NCBI GenBank assembly: GCA_903930515.1
Contig: CAIYYW010000324.1
Coordinates: 1 to 11,614, forward strand
Length of the DNA stretch: 11,614 nucleotides
Direction: 5' to 3'
DNA from: an uncultured delta proteobacterium
GTDB lineage: Bacteria; RBG-13-61-14; DRUE01
The first letter of the stretch is position 1, and the number at the start of each line of letters is the position of its first letter. The notes beneath the pieces were generated by a model. That model saw only the letters and a program-made list of their open reading frames with translations. It made no database searches and was not told the DNA's origin. The position numbers and the translations under genes are program-made. Shown in pieces: positions 1 through 9,173 of the stretch.

Positions 1-1248
1 CGATCTATCCAAAAAACCTTTCGCCCCGGCGAAGTTAAAGATTGGACTCCGGCGGGTTCATCCCAATTGATGTTCAGGGTGAAGAACATCTATCCTGACT
101 TTTACTTCCAGCCGGAATTGAAAGAGACCAGCCTGGATCAGGGCCGACCCGCGATCCAGCTTCTAATTTCAGAAGGCCGGGAGAAAAGGACTGAGATCCT
201 TTTTGCCGGTGTTGACGGGCGCGACAAGTTTTCTATTTCGCCCGGGGGAAATTTGTTTCGGTTTATTTGGGAGCCGCTCAGCCAAGATCAGATGGACGCT
301 CTTGCTCAAACCAAGTCACCCGCGCATATCATTAGCTTTGAAAAAAAGGATTGCTGTCCCAAACAGGAGATTGAAGTCAAGGTCGGAGAGGAATACAAGC
401 TCGGACCCGGCGGCAGGTATCAACTGAAAATTATCCGGTTTTTGCCGGATTTTGTCTATGACATTGCGGCGCGCAAGCAAGCGACCCGCTCTGATGAGCC
501 GAATAATCCTGCCCTTCAGGTTGCCATTACTGAGACCGCCTCCGGCGTGACCGAAGAGCAATGGCTATTTGCCCGGATGCCTGAATTTGGAAAAACCCAC
601 GGGATTAAGAAGGAAGGTCCGGATTTAATCTATCATTACATCCCCTCTGCGCCGCCGCCCGAAAAAGAACTCCTGATCGTGGGCAAAACCAGAGAGGCAA
701 TTGAGCTTGCGCGAGGTAAAATAATAAAAAAATATCTTCTCCCCAAAGACGGCCAGCCTATTGCTGGAACTGCTATTCTGGGCTTCAAGATTTATGAATC
801 CGCGGAGGAAATAAAAAAGCCGGCCACCCGTTCGGAGGATTGGAAAAATCCGGCGGCGGAGTTTGAAATCCAGCAAGGAGCAACTGTTCAGAGCCGATTC
901 TTTTTTTCAGGCAGTCCCCAACCGTTATTCCTTCCTGACGGAAAATCCGCTCTGGCGCTCCAATCAAGCCCAGAAGATGTGAAGGCTTACCGCAGTAAAC
1001 TGGCGGTGCTCCAGGGTGGGAAGAAAATATTGGGAAAAATCATCCGGGTGAACGATCCGCTTTACTATCAGGGTTATGTATTTTACCAGTCAAATTACAA
1101 GAAGGAAGACCCAACCTATTCCGGAATAATGGTGGTCAGGGACCCGGGATTGATCCTGGTCTGGATCGGCTTCGGAATGGTTTGCTTGGGATTGGTCTTT
1201 ATTTATTATGTCAGGCCGGCAATCCAGAGGAGGAGTAAGAATGCCTGA
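1..1248 (+). CDS. resB: ResB-like cytochrome c biogenesis protein, 5' end outside window
   Basis: The frame is open from base 1 (415 codons visible, then TGA at 1246-1248), so the N-terminus with its first membrane segments lies upstream; the TTG at 67 is only an internal codon. ResB (Ccs1) is the membrane partner of CcsA in System II cytochrome c maturation. It holds apocytochrome and heme outside the cytoplasmic membrane for thioether formation. The visible part is a long hydrophilic domain, as expected for the exported loop, then the family's C-terminal signature: a Gly-Tyr-Val-Phe-Tyr-Gln-Ser segment, a Val-Arg-Asp-Pro-Gly turn, and a final membrane helix (VWIGFGMVCLGLVFIYYV) followed by a basic tail. 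It overlaps ccsA by 8 nt, the usual resB-ccsA order, which strongly supports the call. The large domain is weakly conserved, so identification rests on the C-terminus and the neighbour. Confidence 0.85.
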   Translation, partial: RSIQKTFRPGEVKDWTPAGSSQLMFRVKNIYPDFYFQPELKETSLDQGRPAIQLLISEGREKRTEILFAGVDGRDKFSISPGGNLFRFIWEPLSQDQMDALAQTKSPAHIISFEKKDCCPKQEIEVKVGEEYKLGPGGRYQLKIIRFLPDFVYDIAARKQATRSDEPNNPALQVAITETASGVTEEQWLFARMPEFGKTHGIKKEGPDLIYHYIPSAPPPEKELLIVGKTREAIELARGKIIKKYLLPKDGQPIAGTAILGFKIYESAEEIKKPATRSEDWKNPAAEFEIQQGATVQSRFFFSGSPQPLFLPDGKSALALQSSPEDVKAYRSKLAVLQGGKKILGKIIRVNDPLYYQGYVFYQSNYKKEDPTYSGIMVVRDPGLILVWIGFGMVCLGLVFIYYVRPAIQRRSKNA

Positions 1249-2047
1249 GGCGACTAATTGGCTGGTCGGGATTATGGCGCTCCTTTATGGCGCGGCGATG
1301 GTCAGTTCCATCCTTGGTTTGATTTCCAAAAGAAAATTCCTGGACCGACTCGCGCTCATTCTCCTCGGAAGCGCCTTTTTATTCAACACCTGGACGGTTG
1401 CGGGCCGGTGGATGGAAGCCGGACATGCGCCGTTTCAAACCTTGTATGAAACCCTGATATTTTATCCCTGGTGTGTGGCGGTGGTGACCTTTGTCCTGAT
1501 CGGGATTCATCGGCTTTATTTTTTGGTTCCGTTCGCAGGAGGAGTTTCCTTGCTTGGACTCGCCTATACGCTTTATCGGCCGAACCTGGGAATTATGAAT
1601 CTTCCGCCTGCGCTCCAGAGCGGATGGTTCGTTCCTCATGTGGTCACTTACCTCGTGGCTTACGCCGCGTTATTTGCATCATTTGTGCTGGCGGTATTGT
1701 CCCTGGTGCAACCCTGGTGGGCAAAGAGGCGAAAGCCGGCCGAGGCTAAATCCGGGTTTAATTCCGTGAAATTTGAGCAGTATGCGCACCAGGCCGCAAT
1801 TTTTGGCATTTGCGCAATGACCCTGGGACTGGTTATGGGCGCGTTCTGGGGAAAGCTTGCCTGGGGGGATTATTGGTCCTGGGATCCAAAGGAGAATTGG
1901 TCGCTGGTGTGCTGGCTGGCTTATATTATATATCTGCATTTGCGGCTGATCGCCGGGTTTAGGGAGCGGAAGGCAATGTGGGTTTTGGTATTTGCGTTCA
2001 TGGCATTGGTGTTCAACTATCTCGGGATACATCATCCCTCCGGGTAG
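1241..2047 (+). CDS. ccsA: Cytochrome c biogenesis protein CcsA/ResC (heme handling)
   Basis: This is a polytopic membrane protein of 268 aa that handles heme and, with ResB, forms the System II cytochrome c synthase. The tryptophan-rich WWD motif is clear at residues 208-218 (WGDYWSWDPKE), followed by NWSLVCWLAY. Candidate heme-ligand histidines are H62 (AGHAPF) and H133 (PHVV). Several hydrophobic segments span the chain. I chose ATG 1241, which has a GGAGGAG ribosome site just upstream, over the in-frame ATG 1208, which would embed the start deep in resB. The C-terminus is odd. The family normally ends in a Leu-His-Ser-Tyr-type histidine after an (F)TYFG-like segment, but this protein reads NYLGIHHPSG and stops. 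Shifting one base near 2024-2028 restores a His at the expected distance (see findings). It may therefore be frameshifted, by real mutation or assembly error, although the family assignment is secure. Confidence 0.9.
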   Translation: MPEATNWLVGIMALLYGAAMVSSILGLISKRKFLDRLALILLGSAFLFNTWTVAGRWMEAGHAPFQTLYETLIFYPWCVAVVTFVLIGIHRLYFLVPFAGGVSLLGLAYTLYRPNLGIMNLPPALQSGWFVPHVVTYLVAYAALFASFVLAVLSLVQPWWAKRRKPAEAKSGFNSVKFEQYAHQAAIFGICAMTLGLVMGAFWGKLAWGDYWSWDPKENWSLVCWLAYIIYLHLRLIAGFRERKAMWVLVFAFMALVFNYLGIHHPSG

Positions 2048-2185
2048 CGCGCATTATGCCGGCCGGGGGCCAGGTCAGCCTGGATTACCGAGAAAAGGAG
2101 CTGATCCCTTGCCAGGTTTTGTATCTGCATTGGAAGATCCCGTTTTAAGGCCGAGCTTGATCAAATCCAGATATTCTGCTAAATT
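2048..2185 (+). other. Non-coding gap upstream of the riboswitch
   Basis: This is the first part of the 317-nt gap between ccsA and tupA. I see no gene, and no convincing terminator for ccsA. A perfect 5-bp hairpin (CCAGG-TCAG-CCTGG, 2070-2083) lacks a U-tract. The promoter of the tup operon should lie here, but I could not find a good -35/-10 pair at a position that would include the whole aptamer in the transcript. Read-through from ccsA is an alternative. The frame shifted from ccsA stays open to 2213, but its composition does not look like a conserved protein tail. Confidence 0.5.
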
Positions 2186-2303
2186 GATGATGTCTCCGAG
2201 CCTTGACGCCTAAGGGCTTTGCCTGGCAGGACCGATGGCGCAAGGCCGGCAGGGTTTAGCTGGAAACGGTTAAGCCTCCCGTGCTTGGAAAGGAGGTATC
2301 TTC
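2186..2303 (+). promoter_or_regulatory. Moco-family riboswitch aptamer (molybdenum/tungsten cofactor)
   Basis: Conserved blocks of the Moco RNA motif are recognisable in the expected order: CTCCGAGCC (2194-2202), GGGCTTTGCC (2214-2223), AGGACC (2228-2233), AAGGCCGGC (2242-2250), GCCTCCCGTGC (2274-2284) and GGAAAGGAGGTA (2287-2298). A fold can be drawn by eye. P1 pairs 2186-2192 with 2297-2303 (one U-U mismatch, one G-U). A long helix pairs 2200-2210 with 2237-2246 with a single bulged A2206. A hairpin at 2255-2274 is closed by a GAAA loop at 2263-2266. A CCUCC/GGAGG hairpin pairs 2275-2279 with 2292-2296. In the known class, binding of Moco (or Tuco) represses cofactor synthesis and metal transport genes. 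Here it precedes tungstate import and Moco synthesis genes, matching that role. The comparison with the consensus is from memory. Edges are approximate. Confidence 0.88.
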
Positions 2304-2313
2304 TGAAACCAAC

Positions 2314-2344
2314 CGGCCTTTCCGATCATCGGAGGCCGTTTTTT
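2314..2344 (+). terminator. Rho-independent terminator in the leader (riboswitch expression platform)
   Basis: The stem pairs CGGCCT (2314-2319) with AGGCCG (2333-2338), then CCGA (2322-2325) with TCGG (2329-2332), with a two-U bulge and a UCA loop. It is followed by six T (2339-2344), AA and five more T. It lies 10 nt after the aptamer and 20 nt before the tupA start, so it acts as an attenuator rather than the end of a gene. The 3' arm can pair instead with the aptamer core (2192-2199), giving an antiterminator. I infer that cofactor binding favours termination. Confidence 0.88.
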
Positions 2345-2364
2345 AATTTTTAAAAGGAGGAAAA

Positions 2365-3207
2365 ATGGAAGTTGAGAAATATTTTGGGAAATTGATTTTG
2401 GCTCTGGCCGGTTTGATGATTTTTTCATCGGGGGCTTTTCCCGCTGAAAAAAACCTGATGCTTGCGACCACCACCAGCGTGGACGCGACCGGGCTGCTGA
2501 ATGTGGTCGCGGACGAGTTCCAAAAGGATACCGGGATCAAACTGAAATGGGTCGCGGTCGGAACCGGCGCCGCGATCAAGCAAGCGCAGGACGGGAACGC
2601 GGATGCGGTGATCGCGCACGCGAAGAAGCTTGAGGACCAATTCCTCAAAGACGGCTACGGGGTGAACCGGAGGGTGATCGCGAAAAATTATTTTATGATC
2701 GTAGGCCCGGAGAGCGACCTGGCCGGGGTGCTTGACGCCAAAACCGCAAAAGAGGCGATGCAGAAGATCAAGTCTAGCGGGATACCCTTTGTCAGCCGGG
2801 GGGATAAATCCGGGACCAATATCCGGGAGCTGGAGCTATGGGAATTGGCCGGAGGCAAGCCGGATAAGAACTACCTGGAAACCGGGCAGGGGATGGCGCA
2901 AACCCTTATGATCGCGTCGGAAAAAGAGGCCTACACCATCACCGACACCGCCACCTTTTACGGCATAACCGGGATCAAGGGATTGAAGCCGGTTTTTGAA
3001 AACGCTCCGGAACTGGAAAACATTTATTCCGTGATCGTGGTGAACCCGTTCAAGATCAAGACCGCTAAATATTTTGAGGCGATGCAGTTCGCGGCCTGGC
3101 TGACCTCGCCCAGGGGACAGAAGGTGATCGGAGATTTTAAAGGAAAAAGCAACCGGCAATTATTTCAGCCGATCGCGGATCAGCCGGGGATAGATCTGAT
3201 CAAATGA
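2365..3207 (+). CDS. tupA: Tungstate ABC transporter substrate-binding protein TupA
   Basis: This is the periplasmic binding protein of a TupABC-type importer, which binds tungstate oxyanion with high selectivity over molybdate in the studied members. Length is 280 aa. An export signal is visible: a hydrophobic stretch at residues 10-20, then SSGAFPA, with cleavage plausible after A24 or A27. The hallmark TTTS motif that lines the oxyanion site is at residues 35-38 (LATTTSVDATGLL). The family blocks VGTGAAIKQAQDGNADAVIAH, EDQFLKDGYGVNRR, YFMIVGP and SRGDKSGTNIRE follow in order. The ATG has an AAGGAGG site 4 nt upstream and is the first start after the leader terminator, which makes this the first gene controlled by the riboswitch. 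The ATGA overlap with tupB indicates coupled translation. The Tup family is also annotated as WtpA-like or general molybdate/tungstate binders, but the TTTS motif favours Tup. Confidence 0.92.
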   Translation: MEVEKYFGKLILALAGLMIFSSGAFPAEKNLMLATTTSVDATGLLNVVADEFQKDTGIKLKWVAVGTGAAIKQAQDGNADAVIAHAKKLEDQFLKDGYGVNRRVIAKNYFMIVGPESDLAGVLDAKTAKEAMQKIKSSGIPFVSRGDKSGTNIRELELWELAGGKPDKNYLETGQGMAQTLMIASEKEAYTITDTATFYGITGIKGLKPVFENAPELENIYSVIVVNPFKIKTAKYFEAMQFAAWLTSPRGQKVIGDFKGKSNRQLFQPIADQPGIDLIK

Positions 3208-3848
3208 TCCTGCTGGAACTGATCAAGACCATCTGGGTCTCTTTGAAGGTGAGCGGGTCCGCAACCCTGATCGCATCCCTGCTCGCGGTCCCGCTCGCGC
3301 TTTTCCTGGCCGGGAACGAGTTCAAGGGAAAACGCCTGATCCTCCTGATCAACCAGACCTGGATGGCTGCGCCCACCGTGGTGATCGGGCTCCTATTTTA
3401 CTTCCTACTCAGCAGGTCCGGACCGCTCGGAGCCTTTGGAATCCTCTTCTCCCAGACCGCAATGATGATCGGACAGATTATTCTCATTCTCCCCCTGATC
3501 ATAGGCTTTGCATATAGCGCGCTCCGGCAGGTGGACCAGAAAGCGCGGCTAACCGCACTAACCCTCGGAGCCAACCCCTCCCAGGCCGGATGGATGGTGA
3601 TTAAAGAAGCGAAATATGCCTTAATTATCGCCTTGTTAGCTGGATTTGCTAGAGCTGTTTCTGAGGTTGGAATATCAATGATGTTAGGCGGAAATATCCG
3701 GGGAGAGACCCGGAATATCACCACCGCCATTGCCCTGGAATCCAGCAAGGGCGAATTTTCAGACGCGGTGGTTTTGGGCATACTATTGCTGGGGATCACT
3801 CTCGGGATCAACCTTCTGGTTAATTCCGGATTGAGGGAAAAAGCATAA
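3204..3848 (+). CDS. tupB: Tungstate ABC transporter permease TupB
   Basis: This integral membrane permease (214 aa) forms the translocation path for tungstate. It is rich in hydrophobic helices from the N-terminus (ATLIASLLAVPLALFLAG) onward. The cytoplasmic coupling loop that contacts the ATPase is recognisable: IKEAKYALIIALLAGFARAV followed by SEVG, an EAA-type motif, then GGNIRGETRNITTAIALE, which is typical of TupB. It starts at the ATGA overlap with tupA and ends at a TAATG overlap with tupC. Codon use changes abruptly at 3601-3690, which covers the EAA loop: 35 of 90 bases there are G or C, against 58 of 90 in the preceding 90 bases. The protein sequence is normal across this block, so it is not a frameshift. 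Confidence 0.93.
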   Translation: MILLELIKTIWVSLKVSGSATLIASLLAVPLALFLAGNEFKGKRLILLINQTWMAAPTVVIGLLFYFLLSRSGPLGAFGILFSQTAMMIGQIILILPLIIGFAYSALRQVDQKARLTALTLGANPSQAGWMVIKEAKYALIIALLAGFARAVSEVGISMMLGGNIRGETRNITTAIALESSKGEFSDAVVLGILLLGITLGINLLVNSGLREKA

Positions 3849-4882
3849 TGGGTATGGAACCCGCATATCTCCTTCACCAGATCGGTTATCGGTATCCGGC
3901 GAATAAGTTCGTGCTGGATTTGGAAAGGCTTGAGGTTCCGGCGGGCAAGATCATTGCGTTGGTCGGCCCGAACGGAGCCGGCAAGACCACCTTGCTGCTT
4001 TTGCTCGGGCTGTTGAAAAAGCCTACCCGGGGCGACTTGAAATTTTTCCATTCCGACCCCTGGCAAAGCCGGGAGCTGTTGTATGAGAAAAGAAAAGAAG
4101 TGGTCCTGGTCACTCATCATCCATACCTGTTCCAGGGAACGGTTTTTGAGAACCTGGTTTTCGGGTTGCGGGTGCGGGGGATTCCGGAGCCGGAATGGAA
4201 GGGCAGGGCGGAAGAGGCATTGGCGATGGTGGAACTGGACGGCTTTGAGGATCAGCCGGTCAAGGGCTTGAGCGCGGGACAATCGCAACGGGTGGCCTTG
4301 GCGCGGGCGATCATCATCCGTCCCCGGGTCCTTTTGCTGGACGAGCCGACCGCGAACATAGACGCGAGCATGGTCAGCCGGGTGGAATCCGTGATCAGCG
4401 AGGTGAACGCCCAGCTTTCAACCACCGTCATCTTCTCCACCCATAATTTCTCACAGGCCTTCCGGCTCGCGGATCAGGTCCTGTATTTCCTGGACGGGAA
4501 GCAGGTCAAATACAGCCACGAGAATTATTTCAGCGGAAGAGCCGAGACCGACGGCGCGATCAGTTGGATCGAGCCCAAACCGGGCGCGAAAATATTTTTC
4601 CCCGGAAGGCATCAGGGACATCTCACCGTGGTGATCAGCCCTGAAAAAATTGAGATGTTTCCCGCGTCGCAAAAGCAAACCATTCCCGGTCCCAATATTT
4701 TTTCCGGCCGGATCACCAGGCTGGAAATGGCGGAGAATAATCTGGCCTTGCTCCGGATGAGCGGCGAACTGAATTTTCGGCTGAATCGGCCATTGTCCGA
4801 GTTGGATAAAAAAGGCATTTCCCTTTCCAGCCCGGTTCTGGTAAGATTTGCGCCGGAAGCGGTTGAATTGATTAGGAAATAA
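3848..4882 (+). CDS. tupC: Tungstate ABC transporter ATP-binding protein TupC with C-terminal TOBE-like domain
   Basis: This is the cytoplasmic ATPase that powers TupB. All nucleotide-binding motifs are intact: Walker A GPNGAGKTT (residues 40-48), signature LSAGQ (141-145), Walker B LLLDEP (162-167) with the catalytic Glu166, and the switch His199 (STH). Residues from about 245 to 344 are an extra domain. VISPEKIEMFP resembles the RPE-type linker of oxyanion importers, and GRITRLEMAENN...LVRFAPEAVELI resembles a TOBE fold, which in ModC-type ATPases binds oxyanion and inhibits transport. I infer a similar feedback site for tungstate or molybdate. Translation begins at TAATG, overlapping tupB by one base; Met3 is an alternative start. 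The stop is followed by a 16-nt gap with the moeA ribosome site. Confidence 0.93.
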   Translation: MGMEPAYLLHQIGYRYPANKFVLDLERLEVPAGKIIALVGPNGAGKTTLLLLLGLLKKPTRGDLKFFHSDPWQSRELLYEKRKEVVLVTHHPYLFQGTVFENLVFGLRVRGIPEPEWKGRAEEALAMVELDGFEDQPVKGLSAGQSQRVALARAIIIRPRVLLLDEPTANIDASMVSRVESVISEVNAQLSTTVIFSTHNFSQAFRLADQVLYFLDGKQVKYSHENYFSGRAETDGAISWIEPKPGAKIFFPGRHQGHLTVVISPEKIEMFPASQKQTIPGPNIFSGRITRLEMAENNLALLRMSGELNFRLNRPLSELDKKGISLSSPVLVRFAPEAVELIRK

Positions 4883-4898
4883 GGAGCCAAGGTCGGAA

Positions 4899-6104
4899 AT
4901 GATAGATTATGAGACGGCTTTGAAAAAGGTGGTGGGCAAGGCCAAGCCCTTATCATCTGAGGTTGTGCCCTTGACCAAATCCCTGAACCGAGTGCTGGCC
5001 GAGGACCTCAAAGCCAAAGAGGCGATCCCGCCTTTTCAAAAGGCCACTATGGACGGATACGCGGTCCGGTCATCGGACCTGGTCTTTTCAGCCGCGTCCG
5101 CAACCGTGGCTCTGTTAGTGATTGAAGATTTGCCGGCCGGGAAGGTCAGCAAGGCCGAGCTTAAATGCGGACAGGCGATCCGGATTATGACCGGGGCGGT
5201 ATTGCCCAAAGGCGCGGACGCCGTGGTGATGGTTGAAGACACGGACCAGTGCGGTAAAAAAGTTTTTATCCGGCGCAAGGTTAGGCCCGGGGAAAATACC
5301 GGCCAGCCCGGGGAAGATGTCAAAAAGGGAGAACTGGTCCTGGAAAAAGGGATGGTGATCGGACCGGCCGGGATGGGGATGATCGCCTCGCTCGGGATCA
5401 ACCGGATCAAGGTGTTCCGGCGTCCGGTCGTGGCCATCATTTCCACCGGAGACGAGATCGTGGAACCGTCGGCCCGGATGCGGCCGGGCCAGATCCGCAA
5501 TTCCAACGGCTATTCCCTTTCCGGCCTGGCCCAATCTTTTGGAGCGGAAGTATTATATCTCGGGATCGCCGGGGACAAAAAATCGGCCCTCCGCGCCAAA
5601 ATCCGGGAGGCCGCAAAAGCGGATCTGTTAGTGCTCACCGGCGGGGTCTCGGTCGGGGACTATGACCTGGTCAAGGACCAGCTCAAGGGGTTCGGGGTCA
5701 AGGCCGTTTTCTGGAAAGCCCGGATCAAGCCGGGCAAACCGATTTTTTTCGGAACCAGGCGGAAACAGTTGGTGTTCGGCCTGCCCGGGAACCCGGCCAG
5801 CGCAATGGTCACCTTTCATCTGTTCGTCCGGCCGGCCCTGGACAAGATGATGGGCAGGAAAGAAATCGGGCCCAAGCGCGGGAAAGCCATCGTGCTGGAA
5901 GATTTATTCCTTAAAACCGGCCGGACCCATTTCCTGCGCGGAGCCTTGGACCCGAACGGAATGGTGGTTCAGGTGAAGCCGTTCCCGGACCAGAAAGCCG
6001 GGGTGCTGAAATCAATGCTCAGGAGCAATGTCCTGATCAAGGTCCCGCCTGAGCTGGAAGCGGTGGAAAAGGGAGAAGAATTGGAGATACTCTATCTGGA
6101 GTAG
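4899..6104 (+). CDS. moeA: Molybdopterin molybdenumtransferase MoeA
   Basis: MoeA inserts molybdate (or tungstate in some homologues) into adenylylated molybdopterin, releasing AMP. It is cytoplasmic and 401 aa, the normal length. The conserved PPFQKATMDGYAV block is at residues 44-56, with Asp52 equivalent to the essential Asp of the family. IMTGAVLPKGADAVVMVE, RPGENTGQPGEDVKKG, AIISTGDEIVEP and RPGQIRNSNGYSL follow. The MogA-like domain carries LTGGVSVGDYD (246-256) and GLPGNPASAMVTF. The C-terminal domain continues to GEELEILYLE. The start has AAGGAG at 4881-4886, partly inside the tupC stop. Placement directly after a tungstate importer suggests this MoeA may serve tungsten loading. The sequence alone does not distinguish Mo- from W-specific homologues. 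Confidence 0.96.
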   Translation: MIDYETALKKVVGKAKPLSSEVVPLTKSLNRVLAEDLKAKEAIPPFQKATMDGYAVRSSDLVFSAASATVALLVIEDLPAGKVSKAELKCGQAIRIMTGAVLPKGADAVVMVEDTDQCGKKVFIRRKVRPGENTGQPGEDVKKGELVLEKGMVIGPAGMGMIASLGINRIKVFRRPVVAIISTGDEIVEPSARMRPGQIRNSNGYSLSGLAQSFGAEVLYLGIAGDKKSALRAKIREAAKADLLVLTGGVSVGDYDLVKDQLKGFGVKAVFWKARIKPGKPIFFGTRRKQLVFGLPGNPASAMVTFHLFVRPALDKMMGRKEIGPKRGKAIVLEDLFLKTGRTHFLRGALDPNGMVVQVKPFPDQKAGVLKSMLRSNVLIKVPPELEAVEKGEELEILYLE

Positions 6105-6107
6105 AAG

Positions 6108-6581
6108 ATGGCCAAGCTGACCCACATAGACCAGGAGGGCCGCGCCCAAATGGTGGACATCGGCGCCAAGAAGATCACCCAGAGAACCGCGCTCGCCTCC
6201 TGCCTGATCCAACTCGGGCCGAAGACGCTCAATTTGATCAAAGACAACAAGATCGCCAAGGGAGAAGTCCTGAATACCGCCCGGATCGCCGGGATCAACG
6301 CGGCCAAGCGGACTTTTGAATTGATCCCGCTCGCGCATCCGATCCCGGTGGATCAGATTGAAATAGAAACCGAGTTCCTGAAAAACGGGATTAAAATTTT
6401 CTGCCGCGTGAAAACCCGGGCCCGGACCGGCGCGGAGATGGAAGCCCTGACCGGGGCCGCGATCGGCGCGCTCACGGTTTACGATATGGTCAAGGCGGTG
6501 GAGCGGGGAGCGGTGATCACCGGGCTTCGGCTGGAATACAAGGCCGGGGGAAAGAGCGGGACCTGGAAGAGGAAGGGATGA
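6108..6581 (+). CDS. moaC: Cyclic pyranopterin monophosphate synthase MoaC
   Basis: MoaC converts the MoaA product (3',8-cyclo-7,8-dihydro-GTP) to cyclic pyranopterin monophosphate, the second step of molybdopterin synthesis. Length is 157 aa, as usual. Catalytic positions are present: His77 in LAHPIP (family usually LCHPLP, so the neighbouring Cys is Ala here), the EMEALTGAAIGALTVYDMVKAV block with Asp126 and Lys129, and the C-terminal GGKSG. The start is 3 nt after the moeA stop, and the stop overlaps the ATG of the MOSC gene (ATGA). The gene order moaC-MOSC-moaA-mogA places both pterin-forming enzymes in the same transcript. Confidence 0.97.
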   Translation: MAKLTHIDQEGRAQMVDIGAKKITQRTALASCLIQLGPKTLNLIKDNKIAKGEVLNTARIAGINAAKRTFELIPLAHPIPVDQIEIETEFLKNGIKIFCRVKTRARTGAEMEALTGAAIGALTVYDMVKAVERGAVITGLRLEYKAGGKSGTWKRKG

Positions 6582-7072
6582 GCAAGCCCGGAAAATCGGG
6601 AAAAATCGCCTCGGTGAACCTGAGCCGGAAAAGGGGGCAGGTGAAGCAGCCGGTGGAAAAAGCGGAACTGATTTGCGGCAAAGGCTTTGCCGGAGACGGC
6701 CACCTCGGGTTCGGGCATCGCCAGGTAAGCCTGCTGATGCTGGAGAGCATAACCGAGCAGAAGAAACGGCTGGAACAGGCCGGGGTGGAATCCTGTCAGG
6801 AAAACCAGGGCAAAAAAATATCGCTCGCTCCGGGGGTGTTCGCGGAAAATCTGACCACCCTCGGAATTGATCTTTCCGGGATTTGCGTCGGGGAGGAGTT
6901 GGTGGTCAATGACCGGATCCGACTGCGGGTGAGCCAGATCGGGAAGGAATGTCATACCCGCTGCGCGGTTTATCGTCTGGTGGGCGATTGCATTATGCCG
7001 GCGTTGGGAATTTTTTGCGAAGCCCTGGACAGCGGGACGGTGAAACCCGGAGACAAAATTGAAAGGCGATAA
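6578..7072 (+). CDS. MOSC domain protein, stand-alone
   Basis: MOSC (MOCO sulfurase C-terminal) domains bind or sulfurate molybdenum cofactor or deliver it to target enzymes; the role of small stand-alone bacterial members is not fixed. This one is 164 aa. It shows the usual start of the fold (GKIASVNLS, residues 8-16), then GKGFAGDGHLGFGHRQVSLL (34-53), PGVFAENLTTLGIDL, VGEELVVNDRIRLRVSQIG and the conserved cysteine region GKEC125HTRC129AVYRLVGDC, ending in GIFCEAL and VKPGDKIE. The first seven residues (MSKPGKS) precede the conserved region and are encoded by an 18-nt sequence repeated exactly at the end of the operon. It starts in an ATGA overlap with moaC and overlaps moaA by 14 nt. Homologues are often fused to a MogA/MoaB domain; here that domain is a separate gene two positions downstream. 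Confidence 0.9.
   Translation: MSKPGKSGKIASVNLSRKRGQVKQPVEKAELICGKGFAGDGHLGFGHRQVSLLMLESITEQKKRLEQAGVESCQENQGKKISLAPGVFAENLTTLGIDLSGICVGEELVVNDRIRLRVSQIGKECHTRCAVYRLVGDCIMPALGIFCEALDSGTVKPGDKIERR
6579..6596 (+). repeat. 18-nt direct repeat, copy 1 (moaC stop / MOSC start)
   Basis: TGAGCAAGCCCGGAAAAT occurs here beginning at the moaC stop codon and encoding the first residues of the MOSC protein. The same 18 nt occur at 9111-9128. In copy 1 the terminator half that follows in copy 2 is absent. Confidence 0.85.
7049..7061 (+). promoter_or_regulatory. Ribosome binding site fixing a TTG start for moaA
   Basis: GGAG at 7049-7052 lies 6 nt before TTG 7059-7061, inside the end of the MOSC gene. 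An in-frame TGA at 7041-7043 blocks any start further upstream. The next ATG in frame lies within the iron-sulfur Cys motif, so TTG is the only sensible initiation codon. Confidence 0.8.
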
Positions 7073-8030
7073 GGTATTAAGGATCTCGGTCACGGACCGG
7101 TGCAACCTCCGCTGCATATATTGTATGCCCGAGTCCGGGGTGAATCTTTCGCCGAGCGATGAACTCCTGAGCTACGAGGAGATTGAGCTGATCGGACGGG
7201 CGGCATTGGACGCCGGGATCAGCAAATTCCGGATCACCGGCGGAGAGCCGCTGGTGCGGAAGGGGATCATTCAATTGGTGGAAAAACTGGCGCGTTTGGA
7301 TTCATTGGACCTTGCCCTAACCACCAACGGCATCCTGCTTGCAGAGTTCGCGCATTCGCTCAAGCAGGCCGGCCTGAAGCGGGTGACCGTCAGCCTTGAT
7401 ACCCTGCGCAAGGACCGGTTTGAAAAAATAGCCCGGCGGGACGGACTGGAGAAGATTTTCACGGCCCTGGACAATTCGCGAAAGGCGGGGCTTGCGCCGA
7501 TCAAGATCAATACCGTGATCATCCGCGGGGTCAATGACGACGAGATTTTGGATTTCGTCCGGTTCGGCCAAAAGGAAAAGGTTGAGGTCCGCTTCATTGA
7601 ACTGATGCCGTTTGCAGGCTTGAACTCGGGCTGCAAGGAACTGGGAAGATGGAACAAACCGCTGCTGGTCAAAGGGAATGAGATCAAGGCCGCGATTGAA
7701 AAAGAATTCGGGCCGCTCATTGATTCCCGACCGGAGCAGGGCGTGGCGAAAATTTTCCAGACCGAATCCGGAGCCAAGGTCGGGTTGATCACCCCGATCT
7801 CGGATCGGTTCTGCGACGGCTGCCAACGGCTCCGGCTCGGCCCGGAGGGAAAGCTCCGGATTTGTCTGTTTGACGAGCAGGGGATAGATTTACGGAAGGA
7901 GCTTCGGGAAAGGAAAGCGGATCAGGACCAGATGGCCGCGATCCTAAGCGAGGCTTTTTCGCGGAAAAATCTCTGGGAGAGAGGGGATTTGGAAAAATCC
8001 GCGGGAGAAATGTTTCGGATCGGGGGATGA
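7059..8030 (+). CDS. moaA: GTP 3',8-cyclase MoaA (radical SAM)
   Basis: MoaA is the radical SAM enzyme that starts molybdopterin synthesis from GTP. Length is 323 aa. The N-terminal SAM-binding [4Fe-4S] motif is C15-x3-C19-x2-C22 within ISVTDRCNLRCIYCMPE. FRITGGEPLVRKG, LALTTNG and RVTVSLDTL follow. The C-terminal cluster that binds substrate is C252-x2-C255-x13-C269 (RFCDGCQRLRLGPEGKLRIC). The chain ends in Gly-Gly, the conserved tail that reaches into the active site. The N-terminus is shorter than usual because it starts from TTG only 14 residues before the first Cys, and the first 14 nt overlap the MOSC gene. All key residues are intact, so it should be active. Confidence 0.97.
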   Translation: MKGDKVLRISVTDRCNLRCIYCMPESGVNLSPSDELLSYEEIELIGRAALDAGISKFRITGGEPLVRKGIIQLVEKLARLDSLDLALTTNGILLAEFAHSLKQAGLKRVTVSLDTLRKDRFEKIARRDGLEKIFTALDNSRKAGLAPIKINTVIIRGVNDDEILDFVRFGQKEKVEVRFIELMPFAGLNSGCKELGRWNKPLLVKGNEIKAAIEKEFGPLIDSRPEQGVAKIFQTESGAKVGLITPISDRFCDGCQRLRLGPEGKLRICLFDEQGIDLRKELRERKADQDQMAAILSEAFSRKNLWERGDLEKSAGEMFRIGG

Positions 8031-8031
8031 G

Positions 8032-8577
8032 ATGAGTTTCTTTCAAATCAAAGCCGGAATCCTGACCGTAAGTGACAAAGGCTCTCGCGGAGAGCGCGAG
8101 GACCAAAGCGGGAGGGCGATCCGTGAAATCCTGGGCAGGATCCGCGCGGAGGCGGTCCAATACCGGATCGTCCCGGACGAGCCGAAGCTGATCAAGAAGG
8201 CGCTGATCCAATGGAGCGATCAGGGATTGGATTTGATCCTCACCACCGGCGGGACCGGGTTCAGCCCCAGGGATTTCACGCCCGAAGCCACCAAAGCCGT
8301 TATTGAGCGCGAGACCCCGGGGATCAGCGAGGCGATCCGGATCAGCGGCTTTCAGAAAACCCCGCGGGCCATGCTCAGCCGGGCCGTCTCCGGCATCCGC
8401 AAATCCACCCTGATCATCAACCTGCCCGGAAGCGAGCGCGGGGTCCGGGAGAGCCTGGAAGCGATCCTGGAAATAATTCCGCACGGGATTGAAATCCTGA
8501 AAGGAACCGATTCCGAGTGCGGAACCAAAAAATACCGAAACCCTCAAACCCGGAAAAAGGGAAGGGGAGTAAAATGA
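8032..8577 (+). CDS. mogA: Molybdopterin adenylyltransferase-type protein (MogA/MoaB family)
   Basis: Members of this family adenylylate molybdopterin so that MoeA can add the metal. The signature LTTGGTGFSPRDFTPEATKAVIERETPGISEAIR is clear, including the Asp of the RDFTPEA segment. GILTVSDKGSRGEREDQSG at the start and LIINLPGSERGVRESLEAI near the end complete the fold. At 181 aa it is a little longer than the core domain, with a basic tail (KKYRNPQTRKKGRGVK). The start is 2 nt after the moaA stop, and the TGA stop is nested in the ATGA start of the lipoprotein gene. Both MogA and MoaB names are used for close relatives; pairing with moeA in the same operon supports an adenylyltransferase role. 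I chose mogA as the symbol with less certainty than the family. Confidence 0.9.
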   Translation: MSFFQIKAGILTVSDKGSRGEREDQSGRAIREILGRIRAEAVQYRIVPDEPKLIKKALIQWSDQGLDLILTTGGTGFSPRDFTPEATKAVIERETPGISEAIRISGFQKTPRAMLSRAVSGIRKSTLIINLPGSERGVRESLEAILEIIPHGIEILKGTDSECGTKKYRNPQTRKKGRGVK

Positions 8578-9113: not shown

Positions 9114-9128
9114 GCAAGCCCGGAAAAT
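9111..9128 (+). repeat. 18-nt direct repeat, copy 2 (lipoprotein stop / terminator arm)
   Basis: Exact copy of 6579-6596, also beginning at a TGA stop codon (of the lipoprotein gene). Here it supplies the 5' arm of the operon terminator. Confidence 0.85.
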
Positions 9129-9148
9129 TTTCGGCCTTTCCGGCTTTT
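9117..9148 (+). terminator. Rho-independent terminator ending the tup-moe-moa operon
   Basis: AGCC-C-GGAAA (9117-9126) pairs with TTTCCGGCT (9137-9145) as nine base pairs with one bulged C, a 10-nt loop and then TTTT. It begins 4 nt after the lipoprotein stop. The U-tract is short, so strength is uncertain. Confidence 0.75.
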
Positions 9149-9173
9149 GCCTGACCGAACCAACAACGCCTGC

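Follow-up and report, generated by a model that had tools for sequence, protein, structure and literature searches.

Among the 176 Moco RNAs analyzed by Regulski et al (2008), 58 lack the P3 stem, and in 17 of 19 organisms such RNAs accompany the use of tungsten (PMC2408646). From this correlation, P3-less RNAs were proposed to sense the tungsten cofactor (Tuco) (PMC2408646). The Moco RNA of the E. coli moaABCDE operon has P3 and responds to Moco, not to tungsten; removal of P3 abolished its regulation and did not switch its specificity (PMC2408646). In S. wolfei, a seven-gene operon of similar flavour to the one described here carries three P3-less RNAs (PMC2408646). Clusters that place tungstate transporter genes beside moeA, moaC, and mosC are known from Geobacter (PMC2700814). 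These clusters include mobA-mobB, the Geobacter genomes also have modABC, and in G. metallireducens moaE is missing (PMC2700814).

Here, we analyze a P3-less RNA and the operon behind it in an 11,614-nucleotide stretch of DNA from an uncultured delta proteobacterium, the whole of which we refer to as the window. The lineage is absent from the 2008 Moco RNA list (PMC2408646). The RNA resembles the described P3-less RNAs in its conserved blocks, in its GAAA tetraloop and receptor-like bulge of P2, in the absence of P3, in its terminator, and in its position before genes for Mo/W transport and molybdopterin synthesis (PMC2408646). It shares family and feedback logic with the E. coli RNA. Compared with S. 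wolfei, the locus has a single RNA, more genes, and an extra, genus-specific lipoprotein gene; unlike the Geobacter clusters, its gene run has no mobAB. The riboswitch is thus a typical example of an established RNA family and largely ordinary. Our main reading, to which we assign a probability of about 0.75, is that it senses a cofactor, likely Tuco, and shuts off the operon by premature transcription termination ahead of it.

Aptamer subtype and likely ligand

The aptamer and its elements are as follows.

2182-2311, forward strand: P3-less Moco-family (putatively Tuco-type) riboswitch aptamer, from the RF01055 match and covariation in relatives
2186-2197 with 2292-2303, forward strand: P1 stem, read from the sequence
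2209-2214 (CCUAAG) and 2234-2238 (GAUGG), forward strand: receptor-like bulge of P2, from the sequence and RF01055 alignment
2263-2266, forward strand: GAAA tetraloop on P4, from the sequence and RF01055 alignment

RF01055 (Moco RNA) was the sole Rfam match in the window. It extends over positions 2182-2311 of the forward strand and the whole model (1-135), with 75.2 bits (E 4e-17), about twice the gathering score of 36. The sequence-only reading, which had proposed a Moco-family riboswitch at 2186-2303, was therefore right about the family, and its limits coincide with the outer boundaries of P1; it missed the P3-less subtype and, with it, the likely tungsten ligand. In the RF01055 alignment, P2 and P4 are separated by only five nucleotides (CGGCA) and the P3 stem is absent; the remaining RNAs of the order also have a spacer of 5 nt here. 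A GNRA tetraloop and its receptor are both present, the GAUGG of the latter being one base off UAUGG. Covariation was strong over 60 distinct relatives, in an alignment that was fitted to the model and is biased towards its structure, so that the result favours the model. From these features, the aptamer is assigned to the P3-less "Tuco" subtype, the proposed tungsten-cofactor class.

This assignment makes the tungsten cofactor a likelier ligand than Moco as such. The same RNA and switch could instead respond to Moco or to either cofactor, P3 being irrelevant to the choice of metal: the link between P3 and Tuco is a correlation, Mo and W are nearly the same size, and among the proteins of the genome are four to five of PF00384, a family whose members may hold either metal. 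This alternative appears unlikely in view of the remaining gene content. Next to the TupABC-like operon genes, the genome encodes five homologues of AOR-family tungsten enzymes, and matches to ModA, to the xanthine-oxidase family (PF02738), and to the sulfite-oxidase family (PF00174) were absent from its assembly, which is 93% complete, so that the absences are not absolute. The lack of a ModA match also sets the genome apart from those of Geobacter. Furthermore, P3 is likewise absent from the well-aligned RNAs that precede tupA in other phyla, a comparison that leaves out clostridial RNAs below about 66 bits, whose alignment is forced by the P3-less model. Judged by these sequence features, the tungsten cofactor is the most likely ligand.

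Terminator and antiterminator of the leader

The aptamer is flanked by a possible promoter and a terminator, and overlaps one strand of a candidate antiterminator.

2157-2185, forward strand: possible promoter, TTGATC-17-TAAATT, with the end of the -10 box 8 nt upstream of the conserved CTCCGAG
2285-2293, forward strand: 5' strand of the candidate antiterminator, UUGGAAAGG, within the conserved 3' segment of the aptamer
2314-2344, forward strand: intrinsic terminator, CGGCC-TT-TCCGA / TCGGA-GGCCG followed by T6, from folding
2317-2325, forward strand: 3' strand of the candidate antiterminator, CCUUUCCGA, in the 5' half of the terminator

The promoter candidate matches the consensus at 8 of 12 positions, which is not significant alone (p 0.35). 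Its -10 register of 8-9 nt recurs before four further RNAs from the order, and a pair of these match at 11 of 12 positions. The terminator that the sequence-only reading had noticed in the leader was recovered by folding as a hairpin at 2314-2338 (-14.7 kcal/mol) followed by T6 at 2339-2344, and a terminator scan reported part of the hairpin.

In the minimum free energy fold of the leader, UUGGAAAGG is paired with CCUUUCCGA. When the leader was folded stepwise, the aptamer persisted until position 2312 and then gave way to this pairing, which excludes both P1 and the terminator; the terminator is thus mutually exclusive with a structure that uses aptamer bases. The antiterminator state (-68.3 kcal/mol) and the state with P1 and terminator forced (-66.4 kcal/mol) differ by 1.9 kcal/mol, in energies that omit tertiary contacts and ligand, so that ligand binding could overturn the balance. 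The complementarity between UUGGAAAGG and the terminator had a p of 0.016 in structure-keeping shuffles. A second segment of the aptamer, AAGGCCGG at 2242-2249, is a marginally better complement to this terminator arm (score 22 compared with 20.8), which makes the exact antiterminator uncertain.

The principle recurs in related leaders. In all six terminator-bearing RNAs found in the window's genome and two relatives of the same order, the terminator carries a 7-13 nt complement of the aptamer's conserved 3' CCUCCCGUNNUUGGAAAGG segment. Their complementarity scores sum to 132, whereas over 2000 shuffles that kept the hairpins the sum averaged 85 and never exceeded 114; simpler shuffles were compared as well. 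One of the six (G002 C125) is individually not significant, and the RNAs, being related, are not fully independent. In a congener (G001), the antiterminator pairing is retained through a compatible change from U-G to C-G. Taken together, computation supports an alternative between terminator and antiterminator, with the general principle firmer than the exact pairing.

A terminator at 2314-2344 that acts constitutively, or an RNA that acts on translation, would be an alternative for this leader. The two Aminicenantes loci that we inspected have a translational platform, in which a ribosome-binding GGAG lies inside the 3' strand of P1, a GTG or TTG start follows immediately, and there is no terminator. 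Here, by contrast, tupA has its own Shine-Dalgarno sequence (AAGGAGG, 2354-2360), which is separate from the aptamer and lies beyond the terminator, and the antiterminator complementarity recurs in six RNAs. We therefore consider constitutive termination or translational control very improbable for this leader. A separate observation concerns one RNA of the relative G002 (C9; L021 3487-3700), where the GGAG in P1 of the aptamer seems to be followed closely by a non-standard tupA start codon, possibly ATT, and the closest in-frame TTG falls inside the aptamer.

In the preferred reading of a terminating switch, UUGGAAAGG would pair with CCUUUCCGA when no cofactor is present, block the terminator, and allow read-through into the genes from tupABC to the lipoprotein (ON). 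Bound cofactor would lock P1 and the aptamer core and thereby occupy UUGGAAAGG, the hairpin at 2314-2338 with its U6 would form, and transcription would end before tupA (OFF). We infer this ligand-bound OFF direction by analogy with the E. coli Moco RNA. By such a switch, the end product would feed back jointly on metal import, on the synthesis of the pterin, and on insertion of the metal.

The nine-gene operon and its distribution

Nine genes follow the leader.

2365-3207, forward strand: tupA, tungstate-binding protein, NF041772 TupA 221 bits
3204-3848, forward strand: tupB, permease, NF038017 217 bits (above cut-off)
3848-4882, forward strand: tupC, ATPase, PF00005 104 bits and position
4899-6104, forward strand: moeA, metal insertase, PF03453, PF00994, PF03454
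6108-6581, forward strand: moaC, cPMP synthase, TIGR00581 188 bits (above cut-off)
6578-7072, forward strand: stand-alone MOSC-domain protein, PF03473 33.9 bits (above cut-off)
7059-8030, forward strand: moaA, GTP 3',8-cyclase with TTG start, TIGR02666 325 bits (above cut-off)
8032-8577, forward strand: mogA/moaB-type molybdopterin adenylyltransferase, PF00994 113 bits
8574-9113, forward strand: lipoprotein with lipobox-like FICSC, last gene of the run

The tup identities are probable rather than strict, since their specific matches lie below NCBI's cut-offs: NF041772 is the sole NCBIfam match of tupA (cut-off 400), tupB reaches 168 bits with NF041773 TupB (cut-off 320), and tupC reaches 128 bits with NF041774 TupC (cut-off 400), which is not its top match, so that tupC is named by position. 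For mogA, the top NCBIfam matches, PRK03604 and PRK09417, are both below cut-off. The lipoprotein had no match in Pfam or NCBIfam, and its single-sequence AlphaFold2 model was unusable (pLDDT 34).

Family searches and spacing agree with the earlier proposal of nine contiguous genes for tungstate import and cofactor synthesis. The gaps are -4 nt (tupA/tupB), -1 (tupB/tupC), 16 (tupC/moeA), 3 (moeA/moaC), -4 (moaC/MOSC), -14 (MOSC/moaA), 1 (moaA/mogA), and -4 (mogA/lipoprotein); tsaD begins 95 nt after the lipoprotein gene. The proposal had also held that no further terminator interrupts the run from tupA to the lipoprotein gene; indeed, the scan of the operon, with counts at chance level, yielded no forward terminator that had a genuine T run. 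A hairpin at about 9114-9152, after the lipoprotein gene (-12 kcal/mol), was rejected as a terminator because it has no T run and is too weak.

We infer from gene spacing a single nine-gene transcript gated by one RNA. Gating could also be partial, with the aptamer controlling mainly tupABC and the genes from moeA to the lipoprotein transcribed from internal promoters as well; the widest gap precedes moeA, and spacing alone cannot demonstrate a single transcript. This alternative is weakened by the overlap at five of the eight junctions, by a gene order that is kept across phyla, and by a scan for sigma-70-like sites that found no forward promoter-like site within the operon beyond chance-level counts. 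We regard it as quite unlikely and retain the single transcript as the preferred reading.

In the congener G001, the RNA and the complete nine-gene run are conserved, and tsaD and rsmA come next. In G002 (MGQK01, Deltaproteobacteria RBG_13_61_14), a member of the same order, the RNA is followed by tupABC-moeA-moaC-MOSC-moaA. Five Aminicenantes/Acidobacteria loci (L043-L047) have a P3-less RNA directly upstream of the first eight genes in identical order; they differ from the window in the ribosome site within P1 (read in two of them) in place of a terminator and in lacking the lipoprotein gene. Their TupA proteins share 65-71% identity with that of the window, compared with 48% for the same-order relative, which suggests horizontal transfer; the Tup, Moe, and Moa proteins encoded in the operon (2365-8577) are likewise nearer to those of the five loci. 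The lipoprotein has an orthologue in G001 (47% identity, same position), and its gene was not found in the Aminicenantes operons. By these comparisons, it is an addition at genus level and the only genus-particular part of the run.

In a wider set of 80 TupA loci, more than half have an RNA that matches this model, in most cases immediately upstream of tupA. The breadth of the regulon, which the sequence-only reading had singled out as noteworthy, therefore proved ordinary: the eight-gene order recurs behind P3-less RNAs across phyla, and the adjacency of tup, moe, moa, and mosC was already described for Geobacter (PMC2700814).

As in G. metallireducens, MoaE is missing: no match was found in the window's genome, the congener, the five Aminicenantes/Acidobacteria genomes, or three other tup-operon genomes, which still have moaA, moaC, mogA, moeA, and a stand-alone MOSC protein. 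Such MOSC proteins were proposed earlier as a substitute for missing MoaD/MoaE (PMC4751268). Elsewhere in the window's genome, a ThiS/MoaD-like gene adjoins an AOR gene (G000:C118). Directly upstream of the leader, the window (67-2047) contains ResB and CcsB/CcsA cytochrome c maturation genes.

Sister P3-less RNAs and envelope genes

The window's genome contains a second P3-less RNA (91.3 bits) with a promoter-like TTGACA-16-TAAAAT. The genes behind it encode a lipoprotein with kelch repeats, a GEGP motif-containing diheme protein (438 bits in NCBIfam, above cut-off), and a member of the Porin_O_P family; RNA and genes together lie at L003 (G000:C397) 850-5060, and the arrangement is retained in G001 (L019). 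A sulfite-oxidase-like domain in the diheme protein was considered and found no support in Pfam or solved structures, and a literature search for the GEGP motif returned no paper. This contig, too, has a ResB-like gene, which is located at one of its ends (L003 1-760). In G002, one P3-less RNA, with a 13-nt antiterminator complement, directly precedes a Porin_O_P gene (C41; locus L023 7094-8641). Another, with a terminator, precedes the gene of an exported protein that by eye resembles a barrel of the outer membrane, and behind this gene are CbiM/CbiQ/ABC-type transporter genes of the cobalt/nickel type (C125; locus L022 7176-11123).

Porin_O_P genes thus follow P3-less RNAs at three loci in the lineage. 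The neighbours of the sister RNAs (porin, kelch, diheme, CbiM/CbiQ-type) include no gene with a known link to Mo or W. Since the Porin_O_P family includes oxyanion-selective porins, an outer-membrane route for tungstate is at most a fair guess. We tentatively raise the possibility, which we hold to be doubtful, that the P3-less RNA regulon of this lineage extends past cofactor synthesis to the cell envelope, through such a route or through a novel redox system of the envelope that depends on tungsten, either of which might include the operon lipoprotein.

From an unstudied lineage, the window contributes a clear riboswitch of the tungsten type in which the switch between terminator and antiterminator is readable. 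The same aptamer type and the same eight genes, joined to two expression platforms in two phyla, form a natural comparison. Should the tungsten cofactor prove to be the ligand, the sister RNAs would mark the envelope genes behind them as tungsten-related, and the P3-less RNAs of the lineage would offer material for a direct trial of the split between Moco and Tuco.
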